NCBI GenBank assembly: GCA_030601755.1
Contig: JAUWBF010000013.1
Span: 1 to 55,505 of the forward strand
DNA length: 55,505 nt
Reading direction: 5' to 3'
DNA from: Verrucomicrobiota bacterium
Lineage (GTDB): Bacteria; Verrucomicrobiota; Verrucomicrobiia; Opitutales; Opitutaceae
This document shows, piece after piece, positions 19,827 through 38,210 of the stretch; the stretch's first letter is position 1; each line of letters starts with the position of its first letter. The translations under genes and the position numbers were made by a program. Under the pieces are notes generated by a model. That model did no database searches and was not told the DNA's origin. It was given only the letters and a program-made list of their open reading frames with translations.

Positions 19827-22800
19827 CTAGCCGCGGCTCTTCAGGTAGGCGCGCCAGCCGCCGAAGGACGTGATCTCGGTCGCGCCGTTGAGCGCGGAGG
19901 GTTCGCACACGAAGCCCTTCACCTTCGATCCGTCGGCGAGGATGAGCGTGCCGATGGCGAGCGGTGCCGGCACCTCGGCGGTGAATTGGCCGAAGGCTTC
20001 CTCGGTCAGGCTCCAGAGCTCAACCTCGATGCCGTGGCCGTCCGTCAGCGTCGGGTCGAGCACGAGGCCGGGCTTGGGCGGCGTGGTGTTGGCCAGGGCG
20101 TAGAGCCGGTAGTTGGGCGCGCTGCGGGTGGTCTTGACGAGCGTGGCGGCGCGACTGGTCAGCTGATGGTTGAGCGGTTGTCCGCTCAGGTGCGCGCCGA
20201 CCACCGCGAGTTGCACCGTGGGGACGGCCGTGGGCGTCGGCTCGGGAAGGCCGGCGATGGTGGCGTCGGTGCCGCCGAGCTTGCCGCCGAGCGCGGTATG
20301 GTAGCGCCCACCCAGGACCCAGAGCGCGGCGTCGCGGAAGGCCGGCGCGAGCAGCGTTACGCCAAAGGGCAGGCCGTTGGCGCGAAAGCCCGCCGGCACG
20401 GCCAGGCCGGAGAGGTCCAGGAGGTTCACGAAGTTGGTGTAGTAACCGAGGTTCGTGTTGAGCTGCACCGGCTCCGCGGCGACCTGGGCGTGGCTGTAGA
20501 TGGTGCCACTCGTGGGCAGCAGGAGGACGTCCATCTTGGCCCACTCGGCCTCGGCGACGCGGCGGAGTTCCTCGAGTTTGTAGAAGCTGCGGAAGGTCGC
20601 CACGGCGTCGTAGTTGGCTCCGCCCGAGATGATCTTCTCCGTGGTGGGCCAGAGGGCGTCGGGGTGTTTTTCCCGAAACGCCTGCACGGCCGACAGTCGC
20701 TCGGCGACCCACGGGCCCGAGTAGAGCAGGTCGGCGGTTTCCTTGAACGGCGCGAAGTCGATCTCGACGCGCACGCCTCCGATGGACTCGAGACGGGCGG
20801 CGGCCTGCTCGAACAGCTCGGCGGCGGCGGTGTCGCCAAAGAACTCCAGCTGCGCGGCCGGCGGCACGCCGAAACGGAAACCCGGCGCGAAGTCCGGCGC
20901 GGGCTTCGGTGCGTGGCGGCTGTAGGCGTCGGCCGGGTCGAACTTCGAGACAACCTCGCCGATCGTCTGCGCGTCCGCGCAGGTGAGCGCGAAGACGCTG
21001 ATGCAGTCGAGCGAACGGCACGCGGGCACCAGGCCGGTGGTGCTGAGCAGACCCTTGGTCGGCTTCCAGCCGACGAGGTTGTTAAACGCCGCCGGCACGC
21101 GGCCCGAACCGGCGGTGTCGGTGCCGAGCGCGAAACTCACCAGGCCCGCGGCCACGGCCACCGCCGAGCCCGAGCTGGACCCGCCGGAGATGTAGGCGTC
21201 GTCGAACACGCAGGAGGGCGCGCCGTAGGGCGAGCGCACGCCGACGAGGCCGGTGGCGAACTGGTCGAGGTTGGTCTTGCCGATGCAGACCGCGCCGGCG
21301 GCGATCAGCGCCTCGACGACCGGCGCGTTTTTATCCGGGGTGTATTCAAATTTCGGGCACGCGGCGGTGGTCGGGCAGCCGGCGACGTCGATATTGTCCT
21401 TCACCGCGAAGGGAACGCCGTAGAGAGGCAGCTTTTCGCCGGCCTCGCGGCGGGCGCGCTGGGCGGCGGCGGCGGCGCGGGCCTCGGCGCGCGGGATCAG
21501 GTGAATCCAGACGTGGTCGTCGCCGCGCGCGGCGATGCGGTCGTGCACGAGGTCGACCAGCGACTCGGGATCGAGCCCCTCATCGTAGGCGGCCCGCACG
21601 CTGTGCAGGTCGAGGCTGGGGGAGCCCACGCCGTTCGATGCTGGTTCGGACGGGGTTGGCGCTCCGACCGGCGCGAGCACGACCAGCGGCTGTCCGGCGG
21701 AAACGAGCTTGCCCGGCGGGGCGATGATGCACGCGACAATGCCGGCGACGGGCGCCTCGACCGGCACCTCCATCTTCATGGCCTCGATGATGGCGATCTT
21801 TTGCCCGGCCTCGACGGTCTCGCCGACCTTGACCGGCACCGCCCAGACGTTGCCCGAGATGGACGACGCAACCAGCGCGCCGCCCTCGGGAACAACGACC
21901 TCGCCCTCGTCCGCGCCGGCGGGCGGCTCGGGCGGCGGCGGGATCTCGGCCGAGCCGTCGCGGGCCCAACGCTCGCGCTCCTCGTCGAAGGCGGCCTGCT
22001 GCGCGGTCTTGAAGGCGGTGATCTCGACGGACTCGCGGGCGAGGAAATCACGGTATTTTTGCACGCTGAACGGCTCCTCGGTGATATCGAGCGAAACCTG
22101 GCCGCGGCGGAAGGCCTCGCGAAATTCGTTGAGGTCCTTTTCCGGCATCGGGAAAAAGCGGACTTGGTCGAAGAAGCGCAGCAACCACGGCTGGCCGGGT
22201 TGAAACTCTTTGGTGAGTTTGTAGGTGTTCCAGACGGGCACGGTGCGGCCGACGAGCTGGTAGCCGCCGGGGCTCTCCATGCCGTAGACGCACATGTAGA
22301 CGCCGCCGATGCCGACCTCGCCCTCGGCGGTCCAGGTGCGGGCGGGGTTGTATTTGGTCGTCTGCATCCGGTGACGCGGGTCGACCGGCACGGCGCAGGG
22401 CGCCCCAAGGTAGACGTCGCCAAGGCCGAGCACCAGGTAGCTGGCCTTGAAGATGGTCTCGCGCACGGCGTCGACGGTATCGAGTCCGTTGATACGGCGC
22501 ATGAACTCGATGTTGCTCGGCAGCCAGGGGGCCTCGGCGCGCACGGACTGCTGATACTTGGCGATGGCGGCGCGGGTGGTGTCGGCATCGAAGGCCAGCG
22601 GCATGCGGACCACGCGGGTCGGCACCTCCATGTCGGCGACCGGCGGGAGCTCGGCCTCGGCGCGCACAAGGGTGTCGAGCAGGGTGTCGAGCGCGATGCG
22701 GCGGCTGTCGAAGTTGACCTGCAGCGAGCGCACGCCCGGCGAGAGCTCGATGACGCCGGGGATGGGGTGGGCCTTGCACCACTCCATGAGCGCGTGCACG

Positions 22801-25295
22801 CGGAAGCGAAACTCGAGGTCGAGGACCAGCGGGCCGTATTCGATGAGGATGTATTTGTCGCCAGCCTGGCGGTAGACGACCGCAGGGCGCGTGTCGGTGG
22901 CGGGCAGCGTGCGGATGATCGCGGAAAGGTGGAGCGAGTTGTCCCCAACACGCTCTTCCGAGCCGAACGCGTTGGGGACAACGCGTTCCACCTGTTCGGA
23001 AAGTTCGGCGATGGCGGCGTCGACGCGTTTCTCCGCGATCAGAGCCTCGGCGAAGGTCGTGCGCACGAAGCGAATGGTATCGCCGGGACGCAGCTGTCCG
23101 ATTTTCCACAGGTCCGACTGGATGATGGTCGCAGGACACACGAAGCCTCCGAGCGAGGGGCCGTCCTTGGCGAGGATGACGGGCATGTCGCCGGTGAAGT
23201 TGATGGTGCCGATTGCGTATTCGGTGTCGTGGATGTTCGACGGGTGCAGGCCGGCCTCGCCGCCATCGGGGCGCGTGAAGCTGGGCTTCGGGCCGATCAG
23301 GCGGATGCCGAGGCGGTTGGAGTTGTAGTGCACCTTCCAGTCGGTGGCGAAGAAGGTCTCGATGAACTCCGGCGTAAAGAAGTCGGGCGCGGCGTGCGGT
23401 CCGTAGAGCACGGCGATCTCCCAGCGGGCGCCGTATTCGGGAACCAACGACGCGGGTGCGGCGACGACCGGCGCGAAGGGTTCTTCGACGCGGCCGACCG
23501 GCAGCACGTCGCCATGCCGGAGCACGCGGCCGGCGTGACCGCCGAACTTGCCGAGCGCGAAGGTCGACTTGCTGCCAAGGTAATCAGGCACGTCAAAGCC
23601 GCCGCGCACGGCGAGGGTCGCGCGACAGCCGGCGCCCTTGACCGTGCGAATGCGAAGCGTGGAGCCGGCGCGCACATGCACCGCGGTCCAGAGCGGGCAA
23701 ACGTTTCCATCAAGATCGGCCTCGAAGGCCGCGCCGCAGAGGGCCACCGTGGTGTCGAGGTTGAAGCGCAGGGTCGGACCGGCGAGGGTGATCTCGAGGC
23801 CGGCGGCGTCATCGGGGTTGCCGACGAGGCGGTTGGCCAGGCGAAAGGCGTAATCATCCATCGGACCGGAGGGCGGCACGCCGATGGACCAGTAGCCGAC
23901 GCGTCCCGGGTAGTCCTGCACGCTGGTCTGCGTGCCGGGCTCGATGACGTCGATGGTGGACGGTTTGTAGGGAAAGGTGGCGAGCCACTTGGTGTGCACG
24001 TCGCCGGCGGCGAACTCGGCGCTGGCGGTGATCTGGCGCAGGTAGTCGAGGTTGCACTCGATGCCGGCGACCTTGGTCTTCGCGAGCGCCACCGCGAGCT
24101 TGGCCAGCGCGGCAGGACGGTCGGCGGCGGTGACGATGATCTTGGCGATCATCGGATCGTAGAACGGCGGGATGTCGCTGCCGCGCTCGACCCAGGTCTC
24201 GACGCGCGCGTCGGCCGGGAACTCCGCGGCGGTGAGCACGCCGCTGGAAGGTTGGAAGTCCTTGTTCGGGTCCTCGGCGTAGAGACGGACCTGAATGGAG
24301 GCGCCTTTGACGTTGGGCGCGTAGTCGGAGAGGTCGAGTTCGCCGGCACCGGCGAGGATCATCCACTCGACGAGATCGACGCCGGTCACCTCCTCGGTGA
24401 CGCCGTGTTCGACCTGCAGGCGGGTGTTGACCTCAAGGAAGTAGAAGCGGAGCGAGGCGACATCGAAGACGTATTCGACGGTGCCGGCCGAGCGGTAGCC
24501 GACCGCCGAGGCGAGACGTTGCGCCGACTCAAGCAACTCGGCGCGCAACTCGGGTGACAGACCGGGAGCGGGGGTTTCCTCGACAACCTTTTGGTTGCGA
24601 CGCTGCGCGGAGCAATCGCGCTCTCCCAGGGCGACGACACGGCCTTTGCCATCGCCGAAGATCTGCACCTCGATGTGGCGCGCGGTGGCGACGTATTTTT
24701 CGAGAAACACGCCGCTTTGCTTGAACGCGGACGCGGCCAAACGCTTGACCGACTCGAAGGCGTCGACGAGCGCGGCCTCGTCATTGCAGACGCGCATGCC
24801 GATGCCGCCGCCACCGGCGGTGCTCTTCAGCATGACGGGATAACCGATGCGCGCCGCCTCGGATTTGGCGACGGTCAGGTCGGCGAGCAGCTCGGAACCC
24901 GGGAGCATGGGCACGCCGTTGAGCTGTGCGAGGGCCCGGGCCGTGTGCTTGAGGCCAAAATCGCGCATCTGCTGCGGCGTCGGGCCGATAAACACCAAGC
25001 CGGCGGCAGCGCAGGCCTCGGCGAACTCGGCGTTTTCCGACAGGAAACCATAGCCCGGATGAATCGCCTCGGCGCCGGTCGACTTGGCGGCGGCGATGAT
25101 CTTGTCGACGTTCAGATAACTCTCGGTCGCGGGCGCGGCGCCGATGTTGACGGCTTCATCCGCCTGGGCGACATGCAGCGAATGCGCATCGGCCTCGGAA
25201 TAGACGGCCACGGAGCGGACGCCCATTTTCTTCAGGGTGCGGATGACACGGCAGGCAATGGCGCCGCGGTTGGCGATGAGGACTTTGGTGAACAC
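19827..25295 (-). CDS. Urea carboxylase-allophanate hydrolase fusion (urea amidolyase, reversed order)
   Basis: An 1822-residue cytoplasmic enzyme for ATP-dependent urea breakdown: urea plus bicarbonate to allophanate, then to ammonia and CO2. Domains in order: biotin carboxylase (1 to about 450, beginning KVLIANRGAIACRVIRTLKKMG); carboxyltransferase, AHS2/KipA-like part (about 450-765, TSVQDYPGRVGYWSIGVPPSGPMDD) and AHS1/KipI-like part (about 805-1040); biotin carrier (about 1105-1190, biotinyl-Lys K1174 in EAMKMEVP); a Pro/Ser/Ala linker; then amidase-type allophanate hydrolase (about 1226-1822, catalytic Lys near 1298 in PFAVKDNID and the GGSSSG serine loop near 1370) with its C-terminal domain. 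Fungal Dur1,2 has the hydrolase first. Residues 768-790 are encoded by a REPIN-like repeat. Divergent from hupE. Confidence 0.93.
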   Translation of the reverse strand: MFTKVLIANRGAIACRVIRTLKKMGVRSVAVYSEADAHSLHVAQADEAVNIGAAPATESYLNVDKIIAAAKSTGAEAIHPGYGFLSENAEFAEACAAAGLVFIGPTPQQMRDFGLKHTARALAQLNGVPMLPGSELLADLTVAKSEAARIGYPVMLKSTAGGGGIGMRVCNDEAALVDAFESVKRLAASAFKQSGVFLEKYVATARHIEVQIFGDGKGRVVALGERDCSAQRRNQKVVEETPAPGLSPELRAELLESAQRLASAVGYRSAGTVEYVFDVASLRFYFLEVNTRLQVEHGVTEEVTGVDLVEWMILAGAGELDLSDYAPNVKGASIQVRLYAEDPNKDFQPSSGVLTAAEFPADARVETWVERGSDIPPFYDPMIAKIIVTAADRPAALAKLAVALAKTKVAGIECNLDYLRQITASAEFAAGDVHTKWLATFPYKPSTIDVIEPGTQTSVQDYPGRVGYWSIGVPPSGPMDDYAFRLANRLVGNPDDAAGLEITLAGPTLRFNLDTTVALCGAAFEADLDGNVCPLWTAVHVRAGSTLRIRTVKGAGCRATLAVRGGFDVPDYLGSKSTFALGKFGGHAGRVLRHGDVLPVGRVEEPFAPVVAAPASLVPEYGARWEIAVLYGPHAAPDFFTPEFIETFFATDWKVHYNSNRLGIRLIGPKPSFTRPDGGEAGLHPSNIHDTEYAIGTINFTGDMPVILAKDGPSLGGFVCPATIIQSDLWKIGQLRPGDTIRFVRTTFAEALIAEKRVDAAIAELSEQVERVVPNAFGSEERVGDNSLHLSAIIRTLPATDTRPAVVYRQAGDKYILIEYGPLVLDLEFRFRVHALMEWCKAHPIPGVIELSPGVRSLQVNFDSRRIALDTLLDTLVRAEAELPPVADMEVPTRVVRMPLAFDADTTRAAIAKYQQSVRAEAPWLPSNIEFMRRINGLDTVDAVRETIFKASYLVLGLGDVYLGAPCAVPVDPRHRMQTTKYNPARTWTAEGEVGIGGVYMCVYGMESPGGYQLVGRTVPVWNTYKLTKEFQPGQPWLLRFFDQVRFFPMPEKDLNEFREAFRRGQVSLDITEEPFSVQKYRDFLARESVEITAFKTAQQAAFDEERERWARDGSAEIPPPPEPPAGADEGEVVVPEGGALVASSISGNVWAVPVKVGETVEAGQKIAIIEAMKMEVPVEAPVAGIVACIIAPPGKLVSAGQPLVVLAPVGAPTPSEPASNGVGSPSLDLHSVRAAYDEGLDPESLVDLVHDRIAARGDDHVWIHLIPRAEARAAAAAQRARREAGEKLPLYGVPFAVKDNIDVAGCPTTAACPKFEYTPDKNAPVVEALIAAGAVCIGKTNLDQFATGLVGVRSPYGAPSCVFDDAYISGGSSSGSAVAVAAGLVSFALGTDTAGSGRVPAAFNNLVGWKPTKGLLSTTGLVPACRSLDCISVFALTCADAQTIGEVVSKFDPADAYSRHAPKPAPDFAPGFRFGVPPAAQLEFFGDTAAAELFEQAAARLESIGGVRVEIDFAPFKETADLLYSGPWVAERLSAVQAFREKHPDALWPTTEKIISGGANYDAVATFRSFYKLEELRRVAEAEWAKMDVLLLPTSGTIYSHAQVAAEPVQLNTNLGYYTNFVNLLDLSGLAVPAGFRANGLPFGVTLLAPAFRDAALWVLGGRYHTALGGKLGGTDATIAGLPEPTPTAVPTVQLAVVGAHLSGQPLNHQLTSRAATLVKTTRSAPNYRLYALANTTPPKPGLVLDPTLTDGHGIEVELWSLTEEAFGQFTAEVPAPLAIGTLILADGSKVKGFVCEPSALNGATEITSFGGWRAYLKSRG
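22927..22993. repeat. REPIN-like doublet, family II, inside the urea carboxylase coding sequence
   Basis: Two 29-bp units (22927-22955 and 22965-22993) are inverted with 25/29 matches. The better unit is a hairpin: GAACGCGTTG, loop TCCC, CAACGCGTTC, with AGGTG ahead. On the coding strand the doublet is read as VERVVPNAFGSEERVGDNSL plus HL (residues about 768-790), lying between the AHS2 and AHS1 parts of the carboxyltransferase. The reading frame is kept. Confidence 0.75.
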
Positions 25296-25424
25296 GGTCG
25301 AAGGAACGATTAGTATGACGAAAGTTTAGTTTTTTATTACCATTACCAATCTGCGCATAAGCAGGATCGTTGCCGCGGAAGGTCGCTGAATACGGATAAA
25401 TGCGCTCATTTTGGCCTGACCTGA

Positions 25425-25440
25425 TGGCACATATCTTGCA
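25425..25440 (+). promoter_or_regulatory. Sigma-54 (RpoN) promoter of hupE
   Basis: TGGCACATATCTTGCA matches the sigma-54 consensus TGGCAC-N5-TTGCW at every position, with GG and GC exactly ten bases apart. Transcription would begin near 25451, only about six bases before the hupE ATG, so the mRNA would be nearly leaderless. No clear NtrC site was found upstream. Confidence 0.7.
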
Positions 25441-25456
25441 GCTTATCGCCCCAGTC

Positions 25457-26065
25457 ATGACCAAGCTTCCCTCCTTCTCCCTTGCCCGTGTTTCCGCCCT
25501 TGCTTCCGGTCTCGTGTTGAGCGCCGCCTCGTTGCAAGCCCACCCCGGTCACGACGGTGGCCATGGATTTGAGTGGGACTTCGCGGGCGGTTTTGCCCAC
25601 CCCATCGGCGGTCTGGACCACCTGCTCGCCATGGTGGCGGTCGGTGTGTGGGCCGCCCAGCTCGGCGGTCGCGCCCGCTGGGCCGTGCCGGCGACTTTTG
25701 TCGGCGTGATGGTCGCCGCCGCGGCGCTGGGCATGAACGGCATCGTGCCGGGCGGCGTCGAACAAATGATCGCCGCCTCGCTGCTTGCCTTCGGACTGAT
25801 GATCACGGTGGCCAAGCGCATGCCGCTCTACGCCGGCATCGGCCTGACCGCGCTCTTCGCCGCGTTCCACGGCTTTGCCCACGGCTCCGAGATTCCCGCG
25901 GCGTCCGGCGCATGGTCCTACGGCTTCGGCTTCGTAGTCGCGACCGCCCTGCTCCATGGCGCGGGCTACGGCTTTGGAAAGCTCGTCTCCGCGCAGCGCA
26001 GCTGGCTGGCCGAGACCGCCGGCATGTTCATCGCGGTCATCGGCGCGATCCTGCTGGCCGTTTGA
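25457..26065 (+). CDS. ureJ: HupE/UreJ-family nickel permease
   Basis: A 202-residue inner-membrane protein that probably brings nickel in for urease. A cleavable signal (about residues 1-29, ending SLQA) is followed by a histidine-rich N-terminus (HPGHDGGHGFEWD). The family signature HPIGGLDHLLAMVAVGVWA is at about residues 48-66, with five or six further helices and a second conserved histidine motif, AAFHGFAHGSEIP. The ATG at 25457 was chosen for the signal peptide; the frame is open 57 bases upstream, but that part would lie before the predicted transcription start. It is convergent with the urease operon and divergent from the urea amidolyase. Confidence 0.9.
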   Translation: MTKLPSFSLARVSALASGLVLSAASLQAHPGHDGGHGFEWDFAGGFAHPIGGLDHLLAMVAVGVWAAQLGGRARWAVPATFVGVMVAAAALGMNGIVPGGVEQMIAASLLAFGLMITVAKRMPLYAGIGLTALFAAFHGFAHGSEIPAASGAWSYGFGFVVATALLHGAGYGFGKLVSAQRSWLAETAGMFIAVIGAILLAV

Positions 26066-26127: not shown

Positions 26128-26966
26128 TCATAGCTTGCGGGCATCGCATCGGAGATGAGGTGCCGCGGCCGCCAGCACGTTGCGCACGGCGGCGAGCGTG
26201 CGACGGAGTTTCACACCATCGGCGGCGACGAACTTGATGCTCCAACCGACGGCGCCATGCAGCTGGCTAACACCGATCCAAACACCGTCGCCCTGCAAGC
26301 CATGCAAAGCGGCGCGCCAAGTCGGAGCGCTCTCGGCGACGGCGGGAATAAAGACGGCGTTGCCGAAAGTCGTGCTCTCACCGAAGCCGGCATGCGCGGC
26401 AAGTTTCAGCAGACTCTGCGGTGATTGTTCGAAACGTTCGCGCAACACCAGTCGGCCGTCGACGCGCACCTCCAGCCGCAGCAGGAGTTGCGTCCAGGCC
26501 CAGGCGTCGCCGTGCGCGATCCGACCCGGATAAAGCAGGTCGGCATAGAAAGCACCGCCGCCACTCGCCACGTCGAGCACCGTGGTTTGGTCAAACACGC
26601 TGGCGCGGTGCGGCACGAGTGGCTCGGGCAACACCTCCAGCCAGCCGCCGGCATCAACCTTGAAGGTCTGGCGCGCACTCGCCCTGCCCTCGCGCATGCA
26701 AAACACGCGGCTGGCGCTGGGCGTGGTGAGCAGCAGGGCCGCCTCGGGACCGACCTGCACGGAGGACGTGAGTGTATCGCCCGAGAGGATACCCGCGGTC
26801 GGATTGACCACCTGCACCAGCAGCGTCGAGGTGTCGAAATCCCAGTAAGGCTTGCTCAGATGAAACGGCGCGCGAAAAGCCTGTTTCGACAGAACGGTGC
26901 GACCGTCGGAGCGCCGGGTGGCGCCGAGCGATAGCTGTCCGTGGAACGTGGCCGGCGCGGAGATCA

Positions 26967-26967
<1 letters not shown>
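26128..26967 (-). CDS. ureD: Urease accessory protein UreD (UreH)
   Basis: A 279-residue chaperone that forms the UreD-UreF-UreG complex on apo-urease for nickel delivery. The family motif NPTAGILSGDTLT is at about residues 55-67, LTTPSASRVF follows near 80-89, and LPEPLVPHRASVF near 111-123. Length is normal. Its start overlaps the last base of ureG, so it is the last gene of the operon and translationally coupled. In many bacteria ureD is first in the operon; here it is last. Confidence 0.95.
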
Positions 26968-27587
<620 letters not shown>

Positions 27588-27604
27588 GATAGGGAATTAC
27601 GGGG

Positions 27605-28330
27605 TTAGGAAATAAACAGGCGAAAGTCGGACGTCTCGTGCCGGGCGCAGGCGATATCCAGCCAAGGGTTGAACCAGCCGATCTCGTCGACCGGCACCTC
27701 GGTGGCTGCCGCGACTACCTCCGGAGCCTTGGACAACAACTCGGTGAGCAACGTCTGCGCGGCGTTTTGGCCGATGCGAATCAGCTTCATCGAGGCGGCG
27801 ATCTGACCGGAGAGATTGGCGTAGGTCAGCCCGGACAACACCGCGACAAGCGGCGCCCCGTGCACCCGCCCCTCAAGCGCTGCCGAGACCGCGGTCGAGT
27901 GCGCCCATGCTCCGGCGGATGAACGCTCCAGATAGGCCTTGGCCAGCGGATGACCATGCAAGCCGGACAACAACTCGGCGCGCTGACGCCCGATATTCTC
28001 GGCGGCGAAACGCGGCTCGCGCGCGGACTTGAGCGCATGGGTGAGCGTGCAGAGTTCCGCCACGGCCTCCCAATCGGGTGAAGCCGGCTCGAGCGCCCGC
28101 CAGGCGTGAGCGGCCAGCGGCAACTCGACCTGACGCAACGCAGGCAGGGCCGAGTCGATCATGAACGCCCGCAACGTGTCGCGATCCTCAACCACGCCGA
28201 GCTGCACCATGCCCTCCAACCCATAGGAATGCGCGTAGGCACCGGTCGGGTAATACGAATCCCCGGCCTGCAACAATGCGCAGAGCCAGGCGGCGTCGGC
28301 GACAGACGTTGGTGCGGTGGACGCTATCAT
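27605..28330 (-). CDS. ureF: Urease accessory protein UreF
   Basis: A 241-residue all-helical accessory protein that joins UreD to UreG. The family motifs LLQAGDSYYPTGAYAHSYGLEGMVQ (about residues 20-44; most relatives have FPxGxFxHSxGLE) and the C-terminal stretch EIGWFNPWLDIACARHETSDFRLFIS are present; the C-terminal Arg/His-Glu region contacts UreD. Upstream, between it and ureE, lies an 82-bp REPIN-like doublet that separates the two genes more than is usual in a urease operon. Confidence 0.93.
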   Translation of the reverse strand: MIASTAPTSVADAAWLCALLQAGDSYYPTGAYAHSYGLEGMVQLGVVEDRDTLRAFMIDSALPALRQVELPLAAHAWRALEPASPDWEAVAELCTLTHALKSAREPRFAAENIGRQRAELLSGLHGHPLAKAYLERSSAGAWAHSTAVSAALEGRVHGAPLVAVLSGLTYANLSGQIAASMKLIRIGQNAAQTLLTELLSKAPEVVAAATEVPVDEIGWFNPWLDIACARHETSDFRLFIS

Positions 28331-28345
28331 CGGCAGGCCGGGTGA

Positions 28346-28427
28346 AGGTGGAGCGGCTTGTCCCCAAGACGCTCGGTTCGGGCGATCCCACGTCGCACGA
28401 ACGCGTTGGGGACAACGCGTTCCACCT
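28346..28427. repeat. REPIN-like doublet, family II, between ureE and ureF
   Basis: Units at 28346-28374 and 28399-28427 are inverted copies of the same 29-bp sequence as at 22927 (23/29 between arms). The right unit is identical over 29 bases to the right unit at 22965-22993. It begins at the last bases of the ureE stop codon and ends 15 bases before the ureF start, so it is transcribed within the operon and may shield or cut the mRNA. Confidence 0.75.
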
Positions 28428-28900
28428 CAGTGCTGATGGCTGGGGCCGAGCTCATGGGCGGGTTGCGTGACGGCGAGGCCACGGGAGAAACGACCGGCGC
28501 GAAAGACGGCGACGACCGACGTATAGGTTATCTGGATACGATCAAACAGCTGCCGCGCGGCCGGTTCGTCCGCAGTGAGCAGGCGTCCTGGCTCGGTGCA
28601 GCATTCGAGATGCAGGTTGCCGACCGCCCAGCCGATGGCGGCCGCGGCGGATGGAGCCATGCCCTCCAGATCGACGGACAGCACGGGCTCGGGAGTCTGC
28701 TCGATGACGTAACGCGCGGTCGCGCTCTGATGAATGACCGCCCCATGCTTCAACGGACGCTCAAGCTGACACCCAAACTCAACCCCGTCCTCCGCCCTGC
28801 CCCGCCAGATTCGCTTGGCCAGCCGGCGGCGCTCGATCTTGAGCGGGACCACCGTCAGGGACTGGTCGAAGTCGGCGATCGAGTTATGAATGAGTATCAT
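28427..28900 (-). CDS. ureE: Urease accessory nickel metallochaperone UreE
   Basis: A 157-residue protein that carries nickel to UreG. The N-terminal peptide-binding domain (about 1-70) contains LKIERRRLAKRIWRGRAEDGVEFG. The metal-binding domain has WAVGNLHLECCTEPGRLLT, where the His of GN-x-H is the family's bridging nickel ligand. The C-terminus ends SHQH, a very short version of the His-rich tail. The ATG at 28900 was preferred to a TTG 21 bases upstream. The stop codon lies at the edge of a REPIN-like doublet. Confidence 0.9.
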   Translation of the reverse strand: MILIHNSIADFDQSLTVVPLKIERRRLAKRIWRGRAEDGVEFGCQLERPLKHGAVIHQSATARYVIEQTPEPVLSVDLEGMAPSAAAAIGWAVGNLHLECCTEPGRLLTADEPAARQLFDRIQITYTSVVAVFRAGRFSRGLAVTQPAHELGPSHQH

Positions 28901-28977
28901 TTGATGAATTATGTTCAGCAAGGACGATGCCAGCGCGTCCGCGTAATGATGCTATCGGTGGTCATGTTGAGCTGGGC

Positions 28978-29015
28978 ATCGGACTGATCTGTCGGATCAG
29001 ACTGATCGGACTGAT
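28978..29015. repeat. GATCGG/CTGATC short-repeat tract downstream of the four-helix-bundle gene
   Basis: Overlapping copies of ATCGGACTGATC-like words (28978-28989 and 28994-29015) fill the end of the ureE-side gap. The same words recur inside the four-helix-bundle gene (29390-29422) and just before its start (29791-29831). Confidence 0.6.
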
Positions 29016-29017
29016 TT

Positions 29018-29788
29018 TCAGAGTGCGACGATGCCTTTGCAGTTGGGGTAGTGGGTGCAGCCCCAAAACTGGGAGCCGGGGGTTTTGCCGGCCTTGGCGG
29101 TGCGGAGAACGGTCAGCGCGCCGCACTTGGGACATTTGGGCGGCTTCGGTAGATCGGCCCGCTCCGTCTGGGCTATGGGCGTGCGCCGTTGCCGCAGGCG
29201 CTCGGTAGCGAGCTGTTCGGAGTAGCCTCCTTCGGTGATGAAGGCCTCCTCGAGGGCGGCGATCTGGCGGTCGAGGAGGAAATTGGCCTGATGGATGAGG
29301 CAGATGAGGGCGTTGGCCCGAACGGCGGCGGCGGCGTGGTCGAGCCAGCGGGCGTAGAGCGCGTAGCGCTGCTGATCGGAAAGGGCGGTCAGATCGGACT
29401 GATCCGACCGATCGGTCTGATCTTTCCGGAAACGCGTGGGCACGGCCCGCACCGCGCTGGCCTCAGCTCCGTCGGGTGCCCATTGGGGCAGGCGGCGATG
29501 GCGCAGGTAGTCTTCGTAATCGAGGAGCAGTTCTTCGAGGCTGGCGCGGGCCACGTTCACAAGGCGGAGCTCGGTCTGCGAGGAGGTGGCGGAGGCACGG
29601 CTGCCCTCGGCGATGTTTTGGCGGCCGGAGCGGGCGGCCTGCACCATTTGGTCGGCGGTGCGGGAACGCGGGTCCACAAACTTTTCGCAAAACCAGTAGG
29701 TGGCGTCGTAGATGAGCGTGGCCGTCTGGAAACTGGCGGTGCTCCGGTAGCCGCCGCTGGGACGCAGTTTTTTGCGGGGTTCGGGCAT
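29018..29788 (-). CDS. Four-helix-bundle (S23/IVP-type) protein with C-terminal topoisomerase-type zinc ribbon
   Basis: A 256-residue protein unrelated to urease function. Residues about 1-130 match four-helix-bundle proteins of the 23S-rRNA intervening-sequence type (YRSTASFQTATLIYDATYWFCEKF, then MVQAARSGRQNIAEGSRAS and LRLVNVARASLEELLLDYEDYL). The C-terminus (about 215-256) is a zinc ribbon of topoisomerase-I type: CPKCG, then FWGCTHYPNCKG. A central acidic/Ser/Thr stretch (DQTDRSDQSDLTALSDQ) is encoded by the GATCGG short repeats. It stands between ureC and ureE on the operon strand. S23-like proteins bind nucleic acid or partner RNA elements; the role here is unknown. The ATG at 29788 marks the conserved start; the frame is open further upstream. 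Confidence 0.85.
   Translation of the reverse strand: MPEPRKKLRPSGGYRSTASFQTATLIYDATYWFCEKFVDPRSRTADQMVQAARSGRQNIAEGSRASATSSQTELRLVNVARASLEELLLDYEDYLRHRRLPQWAPDGAEASAVRAVPTRFRKDQTDRSDQSDLTALSDQQRYALYARWLDHAAAAVRANALICLIHQANFLLDRQIAALEEAFITEGGYSEQLATERLRQRRTPIAQTERADLPKPPKCPKCGALTVLRTAKAGKTPGSQFWGCTHYPNCKGIVAL
29390..29422. repeat. GATCGG/CTGATC tract inside the four-helix-bundle gene
   Basis: Three to four overlapping words of the form CAGATCGGACTGATC and GACCGATCGGTCTGATC lie in the coding region, translated as the Asp/Ser/Thr-rich stretch between the helical domain and the zinc ribbon. Confidence 0.6.
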
Positions 29789-29790
29789 GG

Positions 29791-29831
29791 GGATCGGTCG
29801 GATAAGACGGATCAGGCTGATTGGTCCGATC
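29791..29831. repeat. GATCGG/CTGATC tract upstream of the four-helix-bundle gene
   Basis: Words GGATCGGTCGGAT, ACGGATCAGGCTGAT and TGGTCCGATC fill the gap between ureC (stop at 29851) and the ATG at 29788, mirroring the tract on the gene's other side. Confidence 0.6.
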
Positions 29832-29850
29832 TTCGCGGGCGGACGCGCGG

Positions 29851-31617
<1,767 letters not shown>

Positions 31618-31636
31618 CGAAGGAGACGGAGTTTTA

Positions 31637-31732
31637 GCCACAGAGGACACGGAGCTCGGACACAGAGGTCACGGAGTTCGGAATAGATCGGACTCTGTGC
31701 ACTCTGTATCGGCGCTCTGTGAACTCTGTGGC
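31637..31732. repeat. CACAGAG-type inverted repeat between ureB and ureC
   Basis: GCCACAGAG (31637-31645) and CTCTGTGGC (31724-31732) bound a stretch with at least three more CACAGAG/CACGGAG words on the left and three CTCTGTG words on the right, able to fold into one long interrupted hairpin. It lies inside the urease operon transcript. Such CACAGAG clusters are, from memory, frequent in intergenic DNA of Verrucomicrobiota and Planctomycetota. Confidence 0.65.
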
Positions 31733-31746
31733 CAAGGTTCGAAAGT

Positions 31747-32064
31747 TCAGAGTTTGCCGTTGATCTTGGCGTTGAAGCCGTAGACCTCGCGCCGACCGGC
31801 GAGAGCGACGAGCTCGACCTGCTTGGTGTCGCCGGCCTCGAAACGCACGGCGGTGCCGGCGGGGATGTTGAGTCGGAAACCACGCGAAGCGGCCCGGTCG
31901 AACTCGAGGGCCGAGTTGGCTTCGTAAAAATGGAAATGGGACCCGACCTGGACTGGACGATCACCGGTGTTGGCGACGTCCAGCGTGATGGTGTCCAGGT
32001 CAAGATTGGCGGGCAGACCGGTGTTGTCCGGGTCGTCTGCGGGGATGATTTCTCCGGGGATCAT
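31747..32064 (-). CDS. ureB: Urease beta subunit
   Basis: A 105-residue structural subunit. It opens [14 protein letters not shown] (family MIPGEI) and contains [48 protein letters not shown] and [10 protein letters not shown], all close to the consensus. It lies ten bases after ureA. Together with UreA and UreC it builds the (alpha-beta-gamma)3 enzyme. Confidence 0.97.
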
Positions 32065-32074
32065 GGCGGAGGGT

Positions 32075-32377
32075 TCAGCGGATGGGGTTGTGCACAGTCA
32101 CGAGCTTGGTGCCGTCGGGGAACGTGGCCTCGACCTGCACCTCGTGGATCATGTCGGCAATGCCTTCCATGACGTCGTCGAGCTTGAGGATGGTGGTGCC
32201 AAAGCTCATGAGCTCGGCGACGGTGCGGCCGTCGCGGGCACCTTCCATGATTTCGTAGGTGATAATGGCGATGGACTCAGGGTAGTTGAGCTTCAGGCCG
32301 CGGGCCTGGCGGCGGCGGGCGAGGTCGGCGGCGACAACCACCATGAGTTTTTCGCGTTCACGGGGGGTGAGGTGCAT
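32075..32377 (-). CDS. ureA: Urease gamma subunit
   Basis: A 100-residue structural subunit matching the family over its whole length: [34 protein letters not shown] at the start, then [51 protein letters not shown]. Six bases separate it from urtE, so transport and urease genes are one transcription unit. Confidence 0.97.
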
Positions 32378-32383
32378 GCGAGG

Positions 32384-33100
32384 TCAGACTTGCAGGTGTT
32401 CCTTGACGACCTCGTCGGTGAGGTCGGCGATGGGGCCGGAGATGGTGACCGCGCCGCGATCCATGGCGTAGAAGCGGTCGGCGATCTCGCGGCAAAAATC
32501 GACGTATTGCTCGACGAGCAGGATGGAGAGCTCGCCGTCGTTCTTGAGCTTTTTCAGCGTGTCGCCGATGAGGTCGATGATCGACGGCTGAATGCCCTCG
32601 GTGGGCTCGTCGAGGATGAGGAGCTTGGGCTTGGTGAGCAGGGCGCGAGCGATGGCGAGCTGCTGCTGCTGACCGCCGGAGAGCACGCCACCCTTGCGGG
32701 CGAGCATTTCCTTGAGCACGGGGAAGAGCGTGTAGACACGGTCGAGGGCGTCCTTGGCCTCCTTGCCCTTGCGGCCGTGGACGACGAGTCCGATGTGCAG
32801 GTTTTCCTCGACGGTGAGGAGCGGGAAGATGTCGCGGCCCTGCGGCACGTAGGCGATGCCGGACTTGGCGCGGGCCTCGGCGGTCATGCGTTCGATGCGC
32901 TGGCCGTCGAGCGTAATGGAGCCGGCCTTGATGCCGAGCACGCCGGTGATGGTGCGGAGCGTGGTGGTCTTGCCCACGCCGTTGCGGCCCATGAGGGCGA
33001 CGAGCTCGCCGGTGCGGACTTCGAAGTTGACGCCGCGCAGGATGCGGGAGCCGGCGATGTCGGCTTCGACGTTGGAGACGGAAAGAAGGATTTCGGACAT
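32384..33100 (-). CDS. urtE: Urea ABC transporter ATPase UrtE
   Basis: A 238-residue LivF-type ATPase of the urea importer. Walker A GRNGVGKTT at residues 38-46, the Q-loop near PQGRDIFPLLTVEENL, signature LSGGQQQQ at about 140-147, Walker B KLLILDEP at 159-166. PQGRDIFP and the length are typical of UrtE. It pairs with UrtD to energise the UrtBC channel; genes are adjacent with 25 bases between. Confidence 0.95.
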   Translation of the reverse strand: MSEILLSVSNVEADIAGSRILRGVNFEVRTGELVALMGRNGVGKTTTLRTITGVLGIKAGSITLDGQRIERMTAEARAKSGIAYVPQGRDIFPLLTVEENLHIGLVVHGRKGKEAKDALDRVYTLFPVLKEMLARKGGVLSGGQQQQLAIARALLTKPKLLILDEPTEGIQPSIIDLIGDTLKKLKNDGELSILLVEQYVDFCREIADRFYAMDRGAVTISGPIADLTDEVVKEHLQV

Positions 33101-33125
33101 GATGGTGCTTCGCGGGGTCGGCTGG

Positions 33126-33884
33126 TCAGTTGGCTTTGCCGCGGCCGAGGTAGACTTCGCGGACCTTCGGGTTGGCTTGGATGTCGTCGAACTTGCCCTC
33201 GCAGAGCACGCTTCCCTGATGAAGCACGGTGACCTTACCGTTTTGAGCGATTTGTTTCACGAAGGTCATGTCGTGCTCGATGACGATGAGACTGTGCTTG
33301 CCGGCGAGGCTCAGCAGGAGTTCGCCGGTGCGATGGGTCTCCTCGTCGGTCATGCCAGCGGCGGGTTCGTCGACAAGCAGCAGGCGCGGTTCCTGGGCGA
33401 GGAGCATGCCGATCTCGAGCCACTGCTTCTCGCCGTGGGCGAGCAGGCCGGCCTTCCAGTGACGCTTGGCGTCGAGGCGGATGAGCTTGAGGAACTCGTC
33501 GAGCTTGTCGCGGTGGTAGGAGTCGAGTTTTTGGAAGAGCGAGGCGAAAACTCCGCGCGGGCGGTTGAGCGAGAGCACGAGGTTATCGTAAACGGTGTGC
33601 TCGGCGTAGACGCTCGGGGCCTGAAACTTGCGACCGACGCCGAGGCGGTTGATCTGATACTCGTTGAGCTTGGTGAGGTCAGTGTTCTGGCCGAACTCGA
33701 GCTTGCCGGTGTCGGGCTTGGCGCGGCCGGAGATGAGGTCGAAGAAAGTGGACTTGCCGGCGCCGTTGGGACCGATGACCGTGCGCAGCTCGCCCTCGAA
33801 GAGGTAGAAGTTGAGCTCGGTGATGGCCTTGAAGCCGTCGTAGGTCTTGTTGACGCCTTCTACACTGAGAATGGGATGGCTCAT
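33126..33884 (-). CDS. urtD: Urea ABC transporter ATPase UrtD
   Basis: A 252-residue LivG-type ATPase. Walker A IGPNGAGKST at about residues 37-46, Walker B RLLLVDEPAAGMTDEET, and LAHGEKQWLEIGM in place of a canonical LSGGQ signature; this variant is characteristic of UrtD. The ATG at 33884 (SHPILSVEGVNKTYDGF) fits the family start; a longer frame would run into the urtC end. Ten bases separate it from urtC. Confidence 0.95.
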   Translation of the reverse strand: MSHPILSVEGVNKTYDGFKAITELNFYLFEGELRTVIGPNGAGKSTFFDLISGRAKPDTGKLEFGQNTDLTKLNEYQINRLGVGRKFQAPSVYAEHTVYDNLVLSLNRPRGVFASLFQKLDSYHRDKLDEFLKLIRLDAKRHWKAGLLAHGEKQWLEIGMLLAQEPRLLLVDEPAAGMTDEETHRTGELLLSLAGKHSLIVIEHDMTFVKQIAQNGKVTVLHQGSVLCEGKFDDIQANPKVREVYLGRGKAN

Positions 33885-33894
33885 GAGTTTCGTA

Positions 33895-35025
33895 TCAGGC
33901 AACGACGGCCTCAGCGGGGGTCTTGGGACGGCGGAGAATGGCGACGCCATCACGGATCTTGCCCGGGATGCTCACGATGCCGCCGGGCAGGAAGAGCACC
34001 ACCAGGATGAACATGCCGCCCATCATGATGAGCCACAAGTCCGGCGCGGCACGGGTCGCCCAACTCTTGAGCGCGTTGACCGCAATCGCTCCGATGATGG
34101 GGCCGAGCAAAGTGCCGCGACCGCCGACAGCGACCCAGACGACCGCCTCGAGCGATTTCTCGGGAGTCATCTCGCTGGGATTAATGATGCCGACCTGCGG
34201 CGTGTAGAGCGCACCGCCGATCGAGGCGACAATGGCACTGAGAACAAAGATGAAGAGCTTGTAGTGAGCGGTTGCATAGCCGCTGAAGAGAGCGCGGTTC
34301 TCGCCGTCGCGGATCGCCTGCTGCACGAGGCCGAACTTGGTTCCCTTGAGCCAGGCAAAGAGCAGATAGACGGCGGCCAGGGTGATCGCGGTCACCACAA
34401 ACAACCCGCGCATGGTGGCGGCGTCGCGCACGTCGTGGCCAAGGACGAACTTGAAGTCGGTGAAGCCGTTGTTGCCTCCCATCAGCAGGTCGTTGCGGAA
34501 GAAAAGCAACGCCGCGCCGTAGGTCAGCGCCTGCGTGAGGATGGAGAAGTAGACACCCTTGATGCGCGAACGGAAAGCCAGATAGCCGAACACGAAGGCC
34601 ACGATGCCGGGCACCAGCAAGATCATGAAGAACGCGAACTGGAAGCTGTCGAACGGCTCCCAGAACCACGGCAGCTTCGACCAGCCGAGGAACACGAGGA
34701 AATCGGGGATCGGCTGCTTATATTGGCCGAGGTCGCCGATCATGCGCATGAGATACATGCCCATCATGTAGCCGCCGAGGGTGAAGAAGAGAGCCTGACC
34801 GAGGCTGAGCAGACCGGTGCGGCCCCAGAGGATGTCGACCGCGAGCGCCAGCAGGGCGTAGCAAAGGTATTTGCCCCAGAGGTTGATCGTGAAGTTGCTG
34901 ACCATGCCCGCGGCATTGAGCGCCGGGAACAGAATGATCAGAAAAAACGCACCGGCGATAAAGCCCCAGGTGTGACGGGAGCGGAAATCGATGCCGGCGA
35001 TGACGGCGGAGTCGGAAAAGGTCAT
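33895..35025 (-). CDS. urtC: Urea ABC transporter permease UrtC
   Basis: A 376-residue LivM-type permease with about nine or ten transmembrane segments. Family features include [42 protein letters not shown] near residues 54-95 and the cytoplasmic coupling loop [14 protein letters not shown] near 230-243. It forms the membrane channel with UrtB. Ten bases after urtB. Confidence 0.95.
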
Positions 35026-35035
35026 GCTTGTTAAA

Positions 35036-36736
35036 TCAATCGAGGCTGCGGCTGCGGGTGGCGAAGAGACCGGCCGGTCGCCATTGCAGGAAGAGGATGA
35101 TGGCCAACAAAACGAGGATCTTGCCGATCACCGGGTTGAGCAGGATCTGCTGGATGGACTGGTCGACAAGGCCGATGCCAAGCGCGCTGAACACGGTGCC
35201 GGCGATGTTGCCCACACCGCCGACGACGACGGTCATGAAACAATCTACGATGTAGTTTTGACCAAGCGAGGGGCCGACGTTGCCGATCTGACTCAGGAAG
35301 GCCCCGGCGAGACCGGCGAGACCCGAACCAAAGGCGAAGGTCATCATGTTGACCCGCTGGGTGCGCACGCCCATGCAGGCGGCCATCTGCCGGTTTTGCA
35401 TGACGGCGCGCATGAGCAGACCTAGCGGAGTGCGCGTGAGCACCAGCCAGGTGCCGAACACGATCAGGCCGGCGAACCCTATCACGAAGACGCGGTTCCA
35501 GCCGAAAATGATGTCGTTGATCGTCCAGTTGCCGCTCAGATAGGACGGGCTGCCGACCTGCACGTTGTTGGCACCGAAGATCAGACGGAAAAGCTGCTGC
35601 AGAATCAACGAGACGCCCCACGTCGCCAACAGGCTCTCCAGGGGACGGCGATAAAGGAACCGCACGATACCGCGCTCAAGCAGAATGCCCACAAAGGCGG
35701 CGGCAAGGAAGCTGATCGGCAGCGCGAAGAGGAAATAGGACTCACGAAGCCAGCCCTCGGCACCCATGCCCGGCAGCTTGATCGACATGCCGAAGGGCGA
35801 AATCGCCAAGCCGGTGGTGAAGAGGTTTTGCACGATGTAGGTCGCGTAGGCCCCGACCGCGATCATCTCGCCATGCGCCATGTTGATGACGCCCATCAAG
35901 CCGAAGGTGATTGCGAGGCCGAGCGCCACCACCAGCAAAATGCTGCCGAGCGAGACGCCGCGGAAAATGGTGCCGAAGAAATTGACGGTCTTGCGATGCG
36001 ACTCGACGGCCGACATGGCCTTGGCGGCGGCCGCCGCGACCTCTTTGTCGCCGGCCTGCTCGGCATCGCGCAGGGCGTTGCGTAGAAAGTCCGTGCTGGA
36101 AAGGGTGTGCAGCTCGCGCAACTCACCGAGGGCGGCGAGGCGCTCGGCGCGATCTGAAGATTTCAGACGGGTCAGCGCGATACCCTCGCGGAGCGCGACC
36201 TGCGCTTTCGGATCGGTCTCGATCTCGGCGCGGGCGATCAGGGCCGGCAGCTTCTCGGCATCCTGGGAATAGCCGACCGTATTGATGGCCTTGATACGGG
36301 TGGCAAGATCTGGAGAACCGACATCGATCAGGTCCACCACGGCCTTCATGGCGCGGCGAAGACGGGCGTCGTGCTCGGCGGTGTCCCAATCGTCGGCGAC
36401 GACTCGCACGGGCTTGCCGTCCGCTCCCGTCAAAGGCTGGGCGTTGTCCACCCGAACGGCGGACTGGGCGTCGTTTTCATCGGCCTCGCCGGTGAGCGTG
36501 ACCGGCACCACCGTTCCGGCCGCATCGGCGTAGAGAAAGATTTGGTCGCGTCGCCAGGCGTCCATCAGGACGGGCACGTCGGCGTCGCCGCGACCGAGCA
36601 AAGATTGGATGAGCGTCATGCGCTCGGAGGCGTCTTCGGCGGCGGCCGCCTTGGCGATGACTTCGCGGGGCGTGGACTCGGCGCGGGCCAGTCCGCAGAC
36701 GGCGAGAAACAGGATGAGCGCGTGGAATAGCTTCAC
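35036..36736 (-). CDS. urtB: Urea ABC transporter permease UrtB
   Basis: A 566-residue LivH-type permease. An N-terminal signal-like segment ([19 protein letters not shown]) is followed by a periplasmic helical domain of about 240 residues, which is a UrtB feature absent from LivH, and then eight or so membrane helices starting [39 protein letters not shown]. Start: no ATG is available; the GTG at 36736 is chosen because it begins the signal segment and lies after the terminator hairpin at 36764-36801, which an earlier start would include. The gene therefore depends on read-through from urtA or on its own promoter. Confidence 0.92.
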
Positions 36737-36763
36737 AAAAAATCGAATAGCAAAGGTTGGGCC

Positions 36764-36801
36764 AAAAAAAGAGGGGCGGGCCGCGTGATGACCCGCCCCT
36801 C
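36764..36801 (-). terminator. Terminator between urtA and urtB
   Basis: On the minus strand GAGGGGCGGG and CCCGCCCCTC form a perfect 10-bp stem (11-base loop) followed by TTTTTTT. It probably lowers transcription from urtA into urtBCDE-ureABC, giving more binding protein than membrane components. Confidence 0.8.
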
Positions 36802-36858
36802 GAAACCACAAACTAACTAACTTTCTGAAACGGACTCCTTGTAAGGTGACCGTAAGGC

Positions 36859-38115
36859 TTACTTGAACTTACCCTTGAGCCAGGGCTCGCCGTATACGTC
36901 CTTGAACTCCTTGAGGATCTTGAACTGACCGTCGGCCTTGGTCTCGCCGATGAACACGTTCTTGGTCAGGTGCATGTTGGGCTGGGTGGTGACGGTGCCG
37001 CCGGGGCCGTCGAAGGAGATGCCCGACTTGAGGGCCTCGCGCACGGCGTCGACATCGAAGGTGCCGGCCTTCTCGACGGCGGCCTTCCAGAGATAGACGC
37101 CGTTGTAGGAAAGAACCATCGGGGAGCAGGTGACGCGGCCTTCCTTCACGATGCCGGGGACGTCGCTCTTCTTGAGCCAGGATTCGAAGTCCTTCACGAA
37201 CTTCTTGTTCGCGGGGCTCTTGATGGACTGGAAGTAGGTCCAGCAACCGAGCTGGCCGACGAGCTGGTCGGCGGGCAGACCGCGGAACTCATCCTCGGAG
37301 ATCGAGAAGGAGACGACCGGGCAGGTCTCGGCGGAGAGACCGGAGGCGGCGTATTCCTTGAAGAAGGGAACGTTGGTGTCACCGTTCAGGGTGCTGACCA
37401 CGGCGGCGCCACCGCCGGCGGCGAACTGCTTGATCTCGGCGACGATCTGCTGGTAGTCGGTGTGGCCGAAGGGCGTGTATTTGCCGGCGGAGATGATCTT
37501 GCCGGAGTCGTCCTTGCGGTAGCCGCCGCCGATGTTCTCGAGGGGAACGCCCTTGCTGAGCAAATACTCGAGGAGAACGAGGTTGGTGGTCTGCGGGTAG
37601 ACGTAGTCGGTGCCCAGCAGGTAGAACTTCTTGTAGCCTTGCTCGAGGAGATAGTCTACGGCCGGAGTGGCCTGCTGATTCACGGCCTCGGCGGTGTAGA
37701 ACACGTTTTGCGACTCTTCTTCACCCTCGTATTGCACGGGGTAGAACAGGAGACCGTTGTTCTTCTCGTAAACGGGAAGCACGGACTTGCGGGAGACGGA
37801 GGTCCAGCAGCCGAAGGTCACGGCGACCTTGTCCTGCTCGAGGAGCTGCTTGGCCTTCTCGGCGAAGAGCGGCCAGTTGGAGGCACCGTCGACGACGACG
37901 GGTTCGATCTTTTTGCCGAGCACGCCACCCTTGGCGTTGATCTCGTCGAAAGTGAAGAGGAGGACGTCACGCAGCGAGGTTTCGCTGATGGCCATCGTTC
38001 CGGAAAGGGAGTGAAGAACGCCGACTTTGACGGTGTCCTCGGCGCGAAGAGCGCCGGCGGCGGTGCCGAGCGCAAGCGCGCTGAGACCGAGGGTGCGAGT
38101 GATGGATTTGATCAT
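36859..38115 (-). CDS. urtA: Urea ABC transporter substrate-binding protein UrtA
   Basis: A 418-residue periplasmic urea-binding protein. The signal peptide is at about residues 1-25 ([26 protein letters not shown]). Mature features match Urt[24 protein letters not shown], then [63 protein letters not shown] and [14 protein letters not shown]-like [14 protein letters not shown]. The ATG at 38115 marks the signal peptide; the upstream open frame enters the preceding terminator. It lies 95 bases after the porin gene and is followed by a terminator. Confidence 0.97.
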
Positions 38116-38142
38116 GATGGGAGAAGGAAAGTGGAGAGAGCT

Positions 38143-38182
38143 GCAAAAAAGGAAGGCCCGCCGCCGCCTTGGCGGCGGGCCT
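38143..38182 (-). terminator. Terminator between porin and urtA
   Basis: AGGCCCGCCGCC and GGCGGCGGGCCT are perfect 12-bp arms with a 5-base loop; on the minus strand they are followed by a T-run (A-run at 38144-38149 on the plus strand). It ends most porin transcripts, so urtA may rely on read-through or a promoter in the 95-base gap. Confidence 0.8.
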
Positions 38183-38210
38183 GAAGTCAAACTGCGTTCA
38201 AACGTTCAGA

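Follow-up and report, generated by a model that had tools for sequence, protein, structure and literature searches.

A carboxylase-first urea amidolyase: a probable in-frame fusion of urea carboxylase and allophanate hydrolase in an Opitutaceae bacterium

The urea amidolyase of K. lactis (KlUA, or Dur1,2; structure 5i8i) carries allophanate hydrolase and urea carboxylase in one chain of about 1800 amino acids. The hydrolase domains form the core of a dimer, and the carboxylase domains flank it. According to the sections of PMC5770610 available to us, the biotinyl domain is mobile and sits at the ends of this dimer, Ser177 is the nucleophile of the hydrolase, and Lys1605 is a catalytic residue. 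A bacterial urea amidolyase fusion has been reported from Pantoea ananatis (Strope et al. 2011, PMC3073912). This protein, which we know by its description in part of that article, was likened to the fungal long form and clusters with fungal sequences. Fused forms were described as confined to some eukaryotes in the excerpt available from a further study (PMC3199775). A carboxylase and a hydrolase homologous to those discussed below also occur in the guanidine pathway (Gca, CgdAB, AtzF), which includes a carboxyguanidine deiminase step. The methods section of PMC11410670 states that guanidine carboxylases require an aspartate at the position of KlUA residue 1330, and an excerpt from a review (PMC12186494) sets this Asp against the Asn of urea carboxylases.

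The window, by which we mean the whole stretch of 55,505 nucleotides that was analyzed, encodes a urea amidolyase that appears to be built the other way around. A single uninterrupted frame of 1822 codons with a GTG start, known from one assembly, runs on the reverse strand from position 25295 to 19827 (19827–25295). Residues 1–1207 (21675–25295, reverse strand) make up the urea carboxylase moiety, with biotin carboxylase, carboxyltransferase AB and CD, and biotinyl domains. All of its Pfam matches score above cut-off: Biotin_carb_N (1–110), CPSase_L_D2 (116–319), Biotin_carb_C (335–439), CT_A_B (AHS2, 471–744), CT_C_D (AHS1, 808–1026), and Biotin_lipoyl (PF00364, 1132–1207; 21675–21902). The biotin-carrying lysine is K1174 (codon 21774–21776). 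The carboxylase is followed by a linker of residues 1208–1225 (21621–21674) and by the allophanate hydrolase moiety of residues 1226–1822 (19830–21620), in which the amidase domain (PF01425, 1250–1658) and the C domain (AH_C, PF21986, 1694–1819) also score above cut-off. At the level of whole enzymes, the NCBIfam equivalog for urea carboxylase, TIGR02712, covers residues 2–1207 (1848.5 bits against a cut-off of 1303.85), and that for allophanate hydrolase, TIGR02713, covers residues 1261–1818 (804.8 bits against 511.05). PRK08186 matches residues 1227–1821, and in the match to 4gyr the hydrolase homology begins again at residue 1227, just past the linker. These matches show that both predicted moieties are complete within one chain.

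Among solved structures, the sequence matches the urea amidolyase 5i8i, the carboxylase 3va7, and the hydrolases 4gyr, 4cp8, and 4iss. In the alignment with 5i8i, the hydrolase of the fungal protein occupies residues 39–611 and the carboxylase residues 624–1827, whereas the carboxylase of the window occupies residues 2–1207 and the hydrolase residues 1227–1822. A first, sequence-only reading of this DNA had described a carboxylase-first fusion in the reverse of the fungal order, and its coordinates, domain order, and biotinyl lysine are all borne out. That reading also knew of no described enzyme with this architecture. We found no description of a single chain with carboxylase followed by hydrolase in the open-access literature, although an unreported UniProt or InterPro entry may exist. 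It looks as if a carboxylase-first urea amidolyase has so far gone undescribed, yet the protein appears to be assembled from known parts and not to represent a new kind of enzyme.

The catalytic residues of KlUA are retained. Ser1397 of the hydrolase aligns with Ser177 in 5i8i, and Lys1299, Ser1373, Ser1397, and His1702 are conserved and invariant in an alignment of 26 rows. We take His1702 to correspond to the catalytic His492 of K. lactis. A text search for H492 in the available portion of PMC5770610 gave no mention of this residue. In the carboxylase, Asp960 aligns with Asp1584 of KlUA. Lys981, in the motif TTKYNP, is the counterpart of Lys1605 by counting from this aspartate pair, as the alignment ends before Lys1605. 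In a structure prediction for residues 1125–1822, confidence is high for the hydrolase moiety, starting at about residue 1225, and the top fold matches of this model are KlUA (5i8i) and allophanate hydrolase, with 4iss, 4gyr, and 4cp8 also among them. Residues up to about 1223, including the biotinyl domain, were modeled with low confidence because the other rows of the alignment are hydrolases alone and none of them covers the biotinyl domain.

The surroundings of the gene point to urea. A same-strand series consists of a porin-like gene (PF07642), urtABCDE, ureABC, ureE/F/G/D, and then the fusion. In order of increasing coordinates, and all on the reverse strand, ureD, ureG, ureF, ureE, and ureC lie at 26128–31650, the genes for the beta and gamma (small) urease subunits, ureB and ureA, at 31747–32377, and the urea ABC transporter genes urtE, urtD, urtC, urtB, and urtA at 32384–38190 (TIGR03410, TIGR03411, TIGR03408, TIGR03409, and TIGR03407, all above cut-off). 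Two routes of urea breakdown, urease and the fusion, thus stand next to each other in the window. Between ureD and the fusion, a gene for a HupE/UreJ protein (PF04955) lies on the opposite strand (25400–26065, forward). The urease genes are broken between ureC and ureE by a frame at 29018–30193 (reverse strand) with a topoisomerase-type zinc ribbon (PF01396) above cut-off and a match to a 23S intervening-sequence protein (PF05635) below it. The Rfam family 5_ureB_sRNA (RF02514) gives 88.6 bits at 31122–31453 on the forward strand, antisense to ureC. This match is probably due to the conserved coding sequence of urease and not to a genuine small RNA.

Is the carboxylase nevertheless a guanidine carboxylase that has been joined to an allophanate hydrolase? 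Most bacterial "urea carboxylases" are thought to act on guanidine; guanidine carboxylases make up about 75% of genes of this kind according to the same review excerpt (PMC12186494), and the relatives of the window agree, in that 117 of 130 motif matches (with loci counted more than once) have Asp at the position of residue 1330. The window itself has Asn699 (codon 23199–23201, reverse strand) where guanidine carboxylases must have Asp. This residue aligns with Asn1330 of K. lactis (position 737 in 3va7, with an offset of 593 to the numbering of 5i8i), so that the two fusions share Asn at this site, which distinguishes the window from the guanidine pathway. The 13 motif matches with Asn reduce to five places, namely the window and genomes G259, G133, G256, and G139. 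In a tree of 70 rows (all nine Asn rows identified before it was built, 60 further rows with the highest scores, and the Asp-type copy from the source genome itself; 76 of 146 rows omitted), the Asn rows fall together on one side of a branch with an SH-aLRT support of 100. A guanidine riboswitch, a common although not universal companion of guanidine carboxylases, gave no match in the window at Rfam gathering thresholds. Urea transporter and urease genes adjoin the fusion, and a guanidine-type carboxylase with a TIGR03424 gene sits on a different contig, C7. Given Asn699 and the gene context, we reject the guanidine reading as extremely improbable. Urea is the likely substrate of the fusion because it has Asn699 and neighbors urtABCDE and the urease genes.

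The second carboxylase of the source genome bears on how the hydrolase may be used. Contig C7 (L194) ends within this Asp-type gene. The TIGR03424 gene upstream of it scores 334.6 bits, above cut-off; a further TIGR03424 match of 126.8 bits is below it, and all matches to this family lie away from the contig of the window. The end of contig C32 (L193) cuts through the C-terminal region of a carboxylase, and the pieces on C7 and C32 may or may not belong to one gene. Of two matches to the allophanate hydrolase family in this genome, the fused protein is the sole one above the family cut-off, and a separate hydrolase accompanying the carboxylase on C7 or C32 was not found among the contigs. If the assembly is complete, allophanate from the guanidine route would therefore have to reach the fused hydrolase through solvent.

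We then asked how often the two enzymes are joined elsewhere. The survey was not random and drew on partly overlapping sets. Protein searches covered the family (252 genomes, considered as far as their matches were listed), the phylum (387), two classes with 385 and 369 genomes, two phyla with 279 and 263, and six chosen genomes; no set was devoted to Actinobacteria. A pattern search of GTDB contigs contributed the best 80 of at least 565 confirmed stretches. Across 215 loci there are 151 distinct carboxylase C-termini with a visible stop, and just one of them, that of the window, runs on into a hydrolase. The other 150 frames all stop within 15 residues beyond the carboxylase match. This agrees with the earlier view that the two enzymes are mostly separate genes in bacteria, and that the fusion in the window arose independently. 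The matches listed from the genome searches include no other that spans both halves without a stop. Long-looking frames in nine genomes (G130, G222, G227, G228, G151, G434, G418, G1832, and G786) were discarded, as a stop separates the two genes in every one of them. Plasmid records matching the joint region numbered 224, of which we looked at 60 spread across the ranking; seven of these had one tblastn piece covering at least 98% of the query, and all seven proved to have an intergenic stop. The fusion thus appears to be local and lineage-specific, as judged from these sets of genomes. In 125 of the 150 unfused cases, a hydrolase gene comes next on the same strand (with an extrapolated start between −150 and 600 nt from the carboxylase end). 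The median gap is 21 nt, and 60 of these 125 pairs share one frame. Since these pairs share the order of the window, the order of the fusion is less surprising than a comparison with the fungal enzyme implies.

Two further arrangements were seen in the survey. Four loci (L053–L056, in G130, G222, G227, and G228) have hydrolases shortened by about 30 residues at the N-terminus, whose starts lie in frame and within a few codons of the carboxylase stop. On plasmid p1 of Sinorhizobium sp. B11 (L182), the carboxylase is split across two frames and is missing from the gene table, where the hydrolase is present.

A fusion known from one draft assembly (152 contigs, 96.14% complete) raises the question of whether the joint is real. 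The genomes listed in the contig and family searches include none of the same genus. The linker, APVGAPTPSEPASNGVGS, is rich in Pro, Ala, Ser, and Gly. The sequence-only reading had named a sequencing error hiding a stop and a separate start near position 21620 as the finding that would undo the fusion. With respect to an insertion or deletion, the frame map speaks against such an error. The stops nearest to the linker in the other two same-strand frames lie at codons 1173 and 1266 in one and at codons 1082 and 1238 in the other. Since neither frame contains a stop anywhere along the linker, neither would restore a normal gene boundary, and we dismissed a one-base indel as an explanation. With respect to a substitution, the concern stands: the codons GGA1211, GAA1217, and TCG1220 are each a single substitution away from a stop. 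One of them could be a misread stop between two separate genes, with GTG1223 (21627–21629) as the true start of the hydrolase. In G259, the ATG that opens the separate hydrolase gene stands at the same distance from the SLDLHS motif as this GTG, so that a possible start codon persists at the appropriate place, and an unfused carboxylase would conform to the C-termini of the other 150. This explanation requires a substitution error at exactly this spot of an assembled contig and gains nothing from an indel. It would also have the hydrolase begin with GTG, whereas ATG is the start codon nearest to the expected hydrolase start in 72 of 80 relatives. We consider two separate genes unlikely, while granting this alternative some weight.

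The region upstream of GTG1223 does not help to decide the matter. No Shine-Dalgarno-like motif precedes this codon in the window, and such a core occurs near the start closest to the expected place in 54 of 80 relatives. Within the same family, only one of 14 hydrolase genes carries the motif. Its absence before GTG1223 is therefore uninformative, and we dropped the corresponding argument for the fusion. On balance, we think it probable, with good though not full confidence, that the window contains a genuine, lineage-specific, in-frame fusion of adjacent genes that would encode a bifunctional urea amidolyase in an Opitutaceae bacterium.

If this fusion protein is made and active, urea imported by UrtABCDE would be carboxylated by the N-terminal half at the expense of ATP, with bicarbonate and the biotin on K1174, and the C-terminal half would hydrolyze the resulting allophanate to ammonia and CO2. 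The linker of Pro, Ala, and Ser residues may let the biotinyl domain swing freely, and the hydrolase halves presumably dimerize as in other systems. In KlUA the biotinyl domain can move freely at the dimer ends, whereas in the window about 18 residues tether the C-terminus of this domain to the hydrolase. Because of this connection, the holo-enzyme must differ from that of yeast, provided that the hydrolase halves do dimerize.

The sequence-only reading had proposed that placing the hydrolase beside the biotin carrier may allow channeling of allophanate from the carboxyltransferase to the hydrolase. The two activities would indeed be physically close, and the available part of PMC5770610 describes a positively charged patch between both sites of the yeast enzyme. 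In the same source, however, Zhao et al. report mixing of K. lactis urea amidolyase mutants, which argues that allophanate passes through solvent and speaks against the proposal. The source genome also encodes a guanidine-type carboxylase, while its sole hydrolase above cut-off is the fused one. We regard channeling as very unlikely and expect that allophanate would travel through solvent in the bacterial protein as well. The benefit of the fusion is most likely a matched dosage of both activities. Joining raises the hydrolase activity of the K. lactis enzyme by about 30% (PMC5770610, in the part available), and the fusion perhaps also stabilizes the hydrolase.

A broader reading holds that this protein is a second, independent single-chain urea amidolyase with a swinging biotinyl domain tethered to its hydrolase, a holo-enzyme unlike that of yeast, and a hydrolase that also serves the guanidine pathway; for this combination we see the case as evenly balanced. 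Such a protein would be a natural comparison for the debate on the yeast enzyme, namely whether joining helps through structure, by docking of the hydrolase onto the carboxylase, or through dosage alone. A fusion in the opposite order cannot merely reproduce the yeast arrangement.

Loci in related genomes suggest how the fusion may have formed. The carboxylases of the nearest relatives, G259, G133, and G139, are 76–77% identical to that of the window, and the hydrolases 67–69% (local alignment). As in the window, the gene order is porin, urtABCDE, carboxylase, and hydrolase, but the last two are separate genes: in G259 they overlap by ATGA, and the extrapolated gaps are 68 nt in G133 and 148 nt in G139. 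Unlike the window, the parts of these contigs that we examined contain no match to urease. The simplest account of the fusion would be the loss of the boundary between two such adjacent, co-oriented genes in frame. If this is how the fusion was made, its domain order reflects gene order, and the comparison of loci suggests the same. Both gene orders occur among Asn-type loci, and the order of the fungal fusion equals one of them. In three Asn-type loci (L164, L199, and L200, in G236, G888, and G792), the hydrolase gene lies upstream of the gene for the carboxylase, which is the order of the two enzymes in the fungal protein; in G853, the fourth such locus beyond the close group of the window, the hydrolase follows the carboxylase. 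With close relatives of the window carboxylase-first and G236, G888, and G792 hydrolase-first, these loci suggest that the order within a fusion would follow that of the genes from which it formed. Two further relatives, G134 (L190) and G135 (L191), have a hydrolase 68% identical to that of the window downstream of ureC-E-F-G-D; the gap of about 400 nt before this hydrolase is too short to hold a carboxylase.
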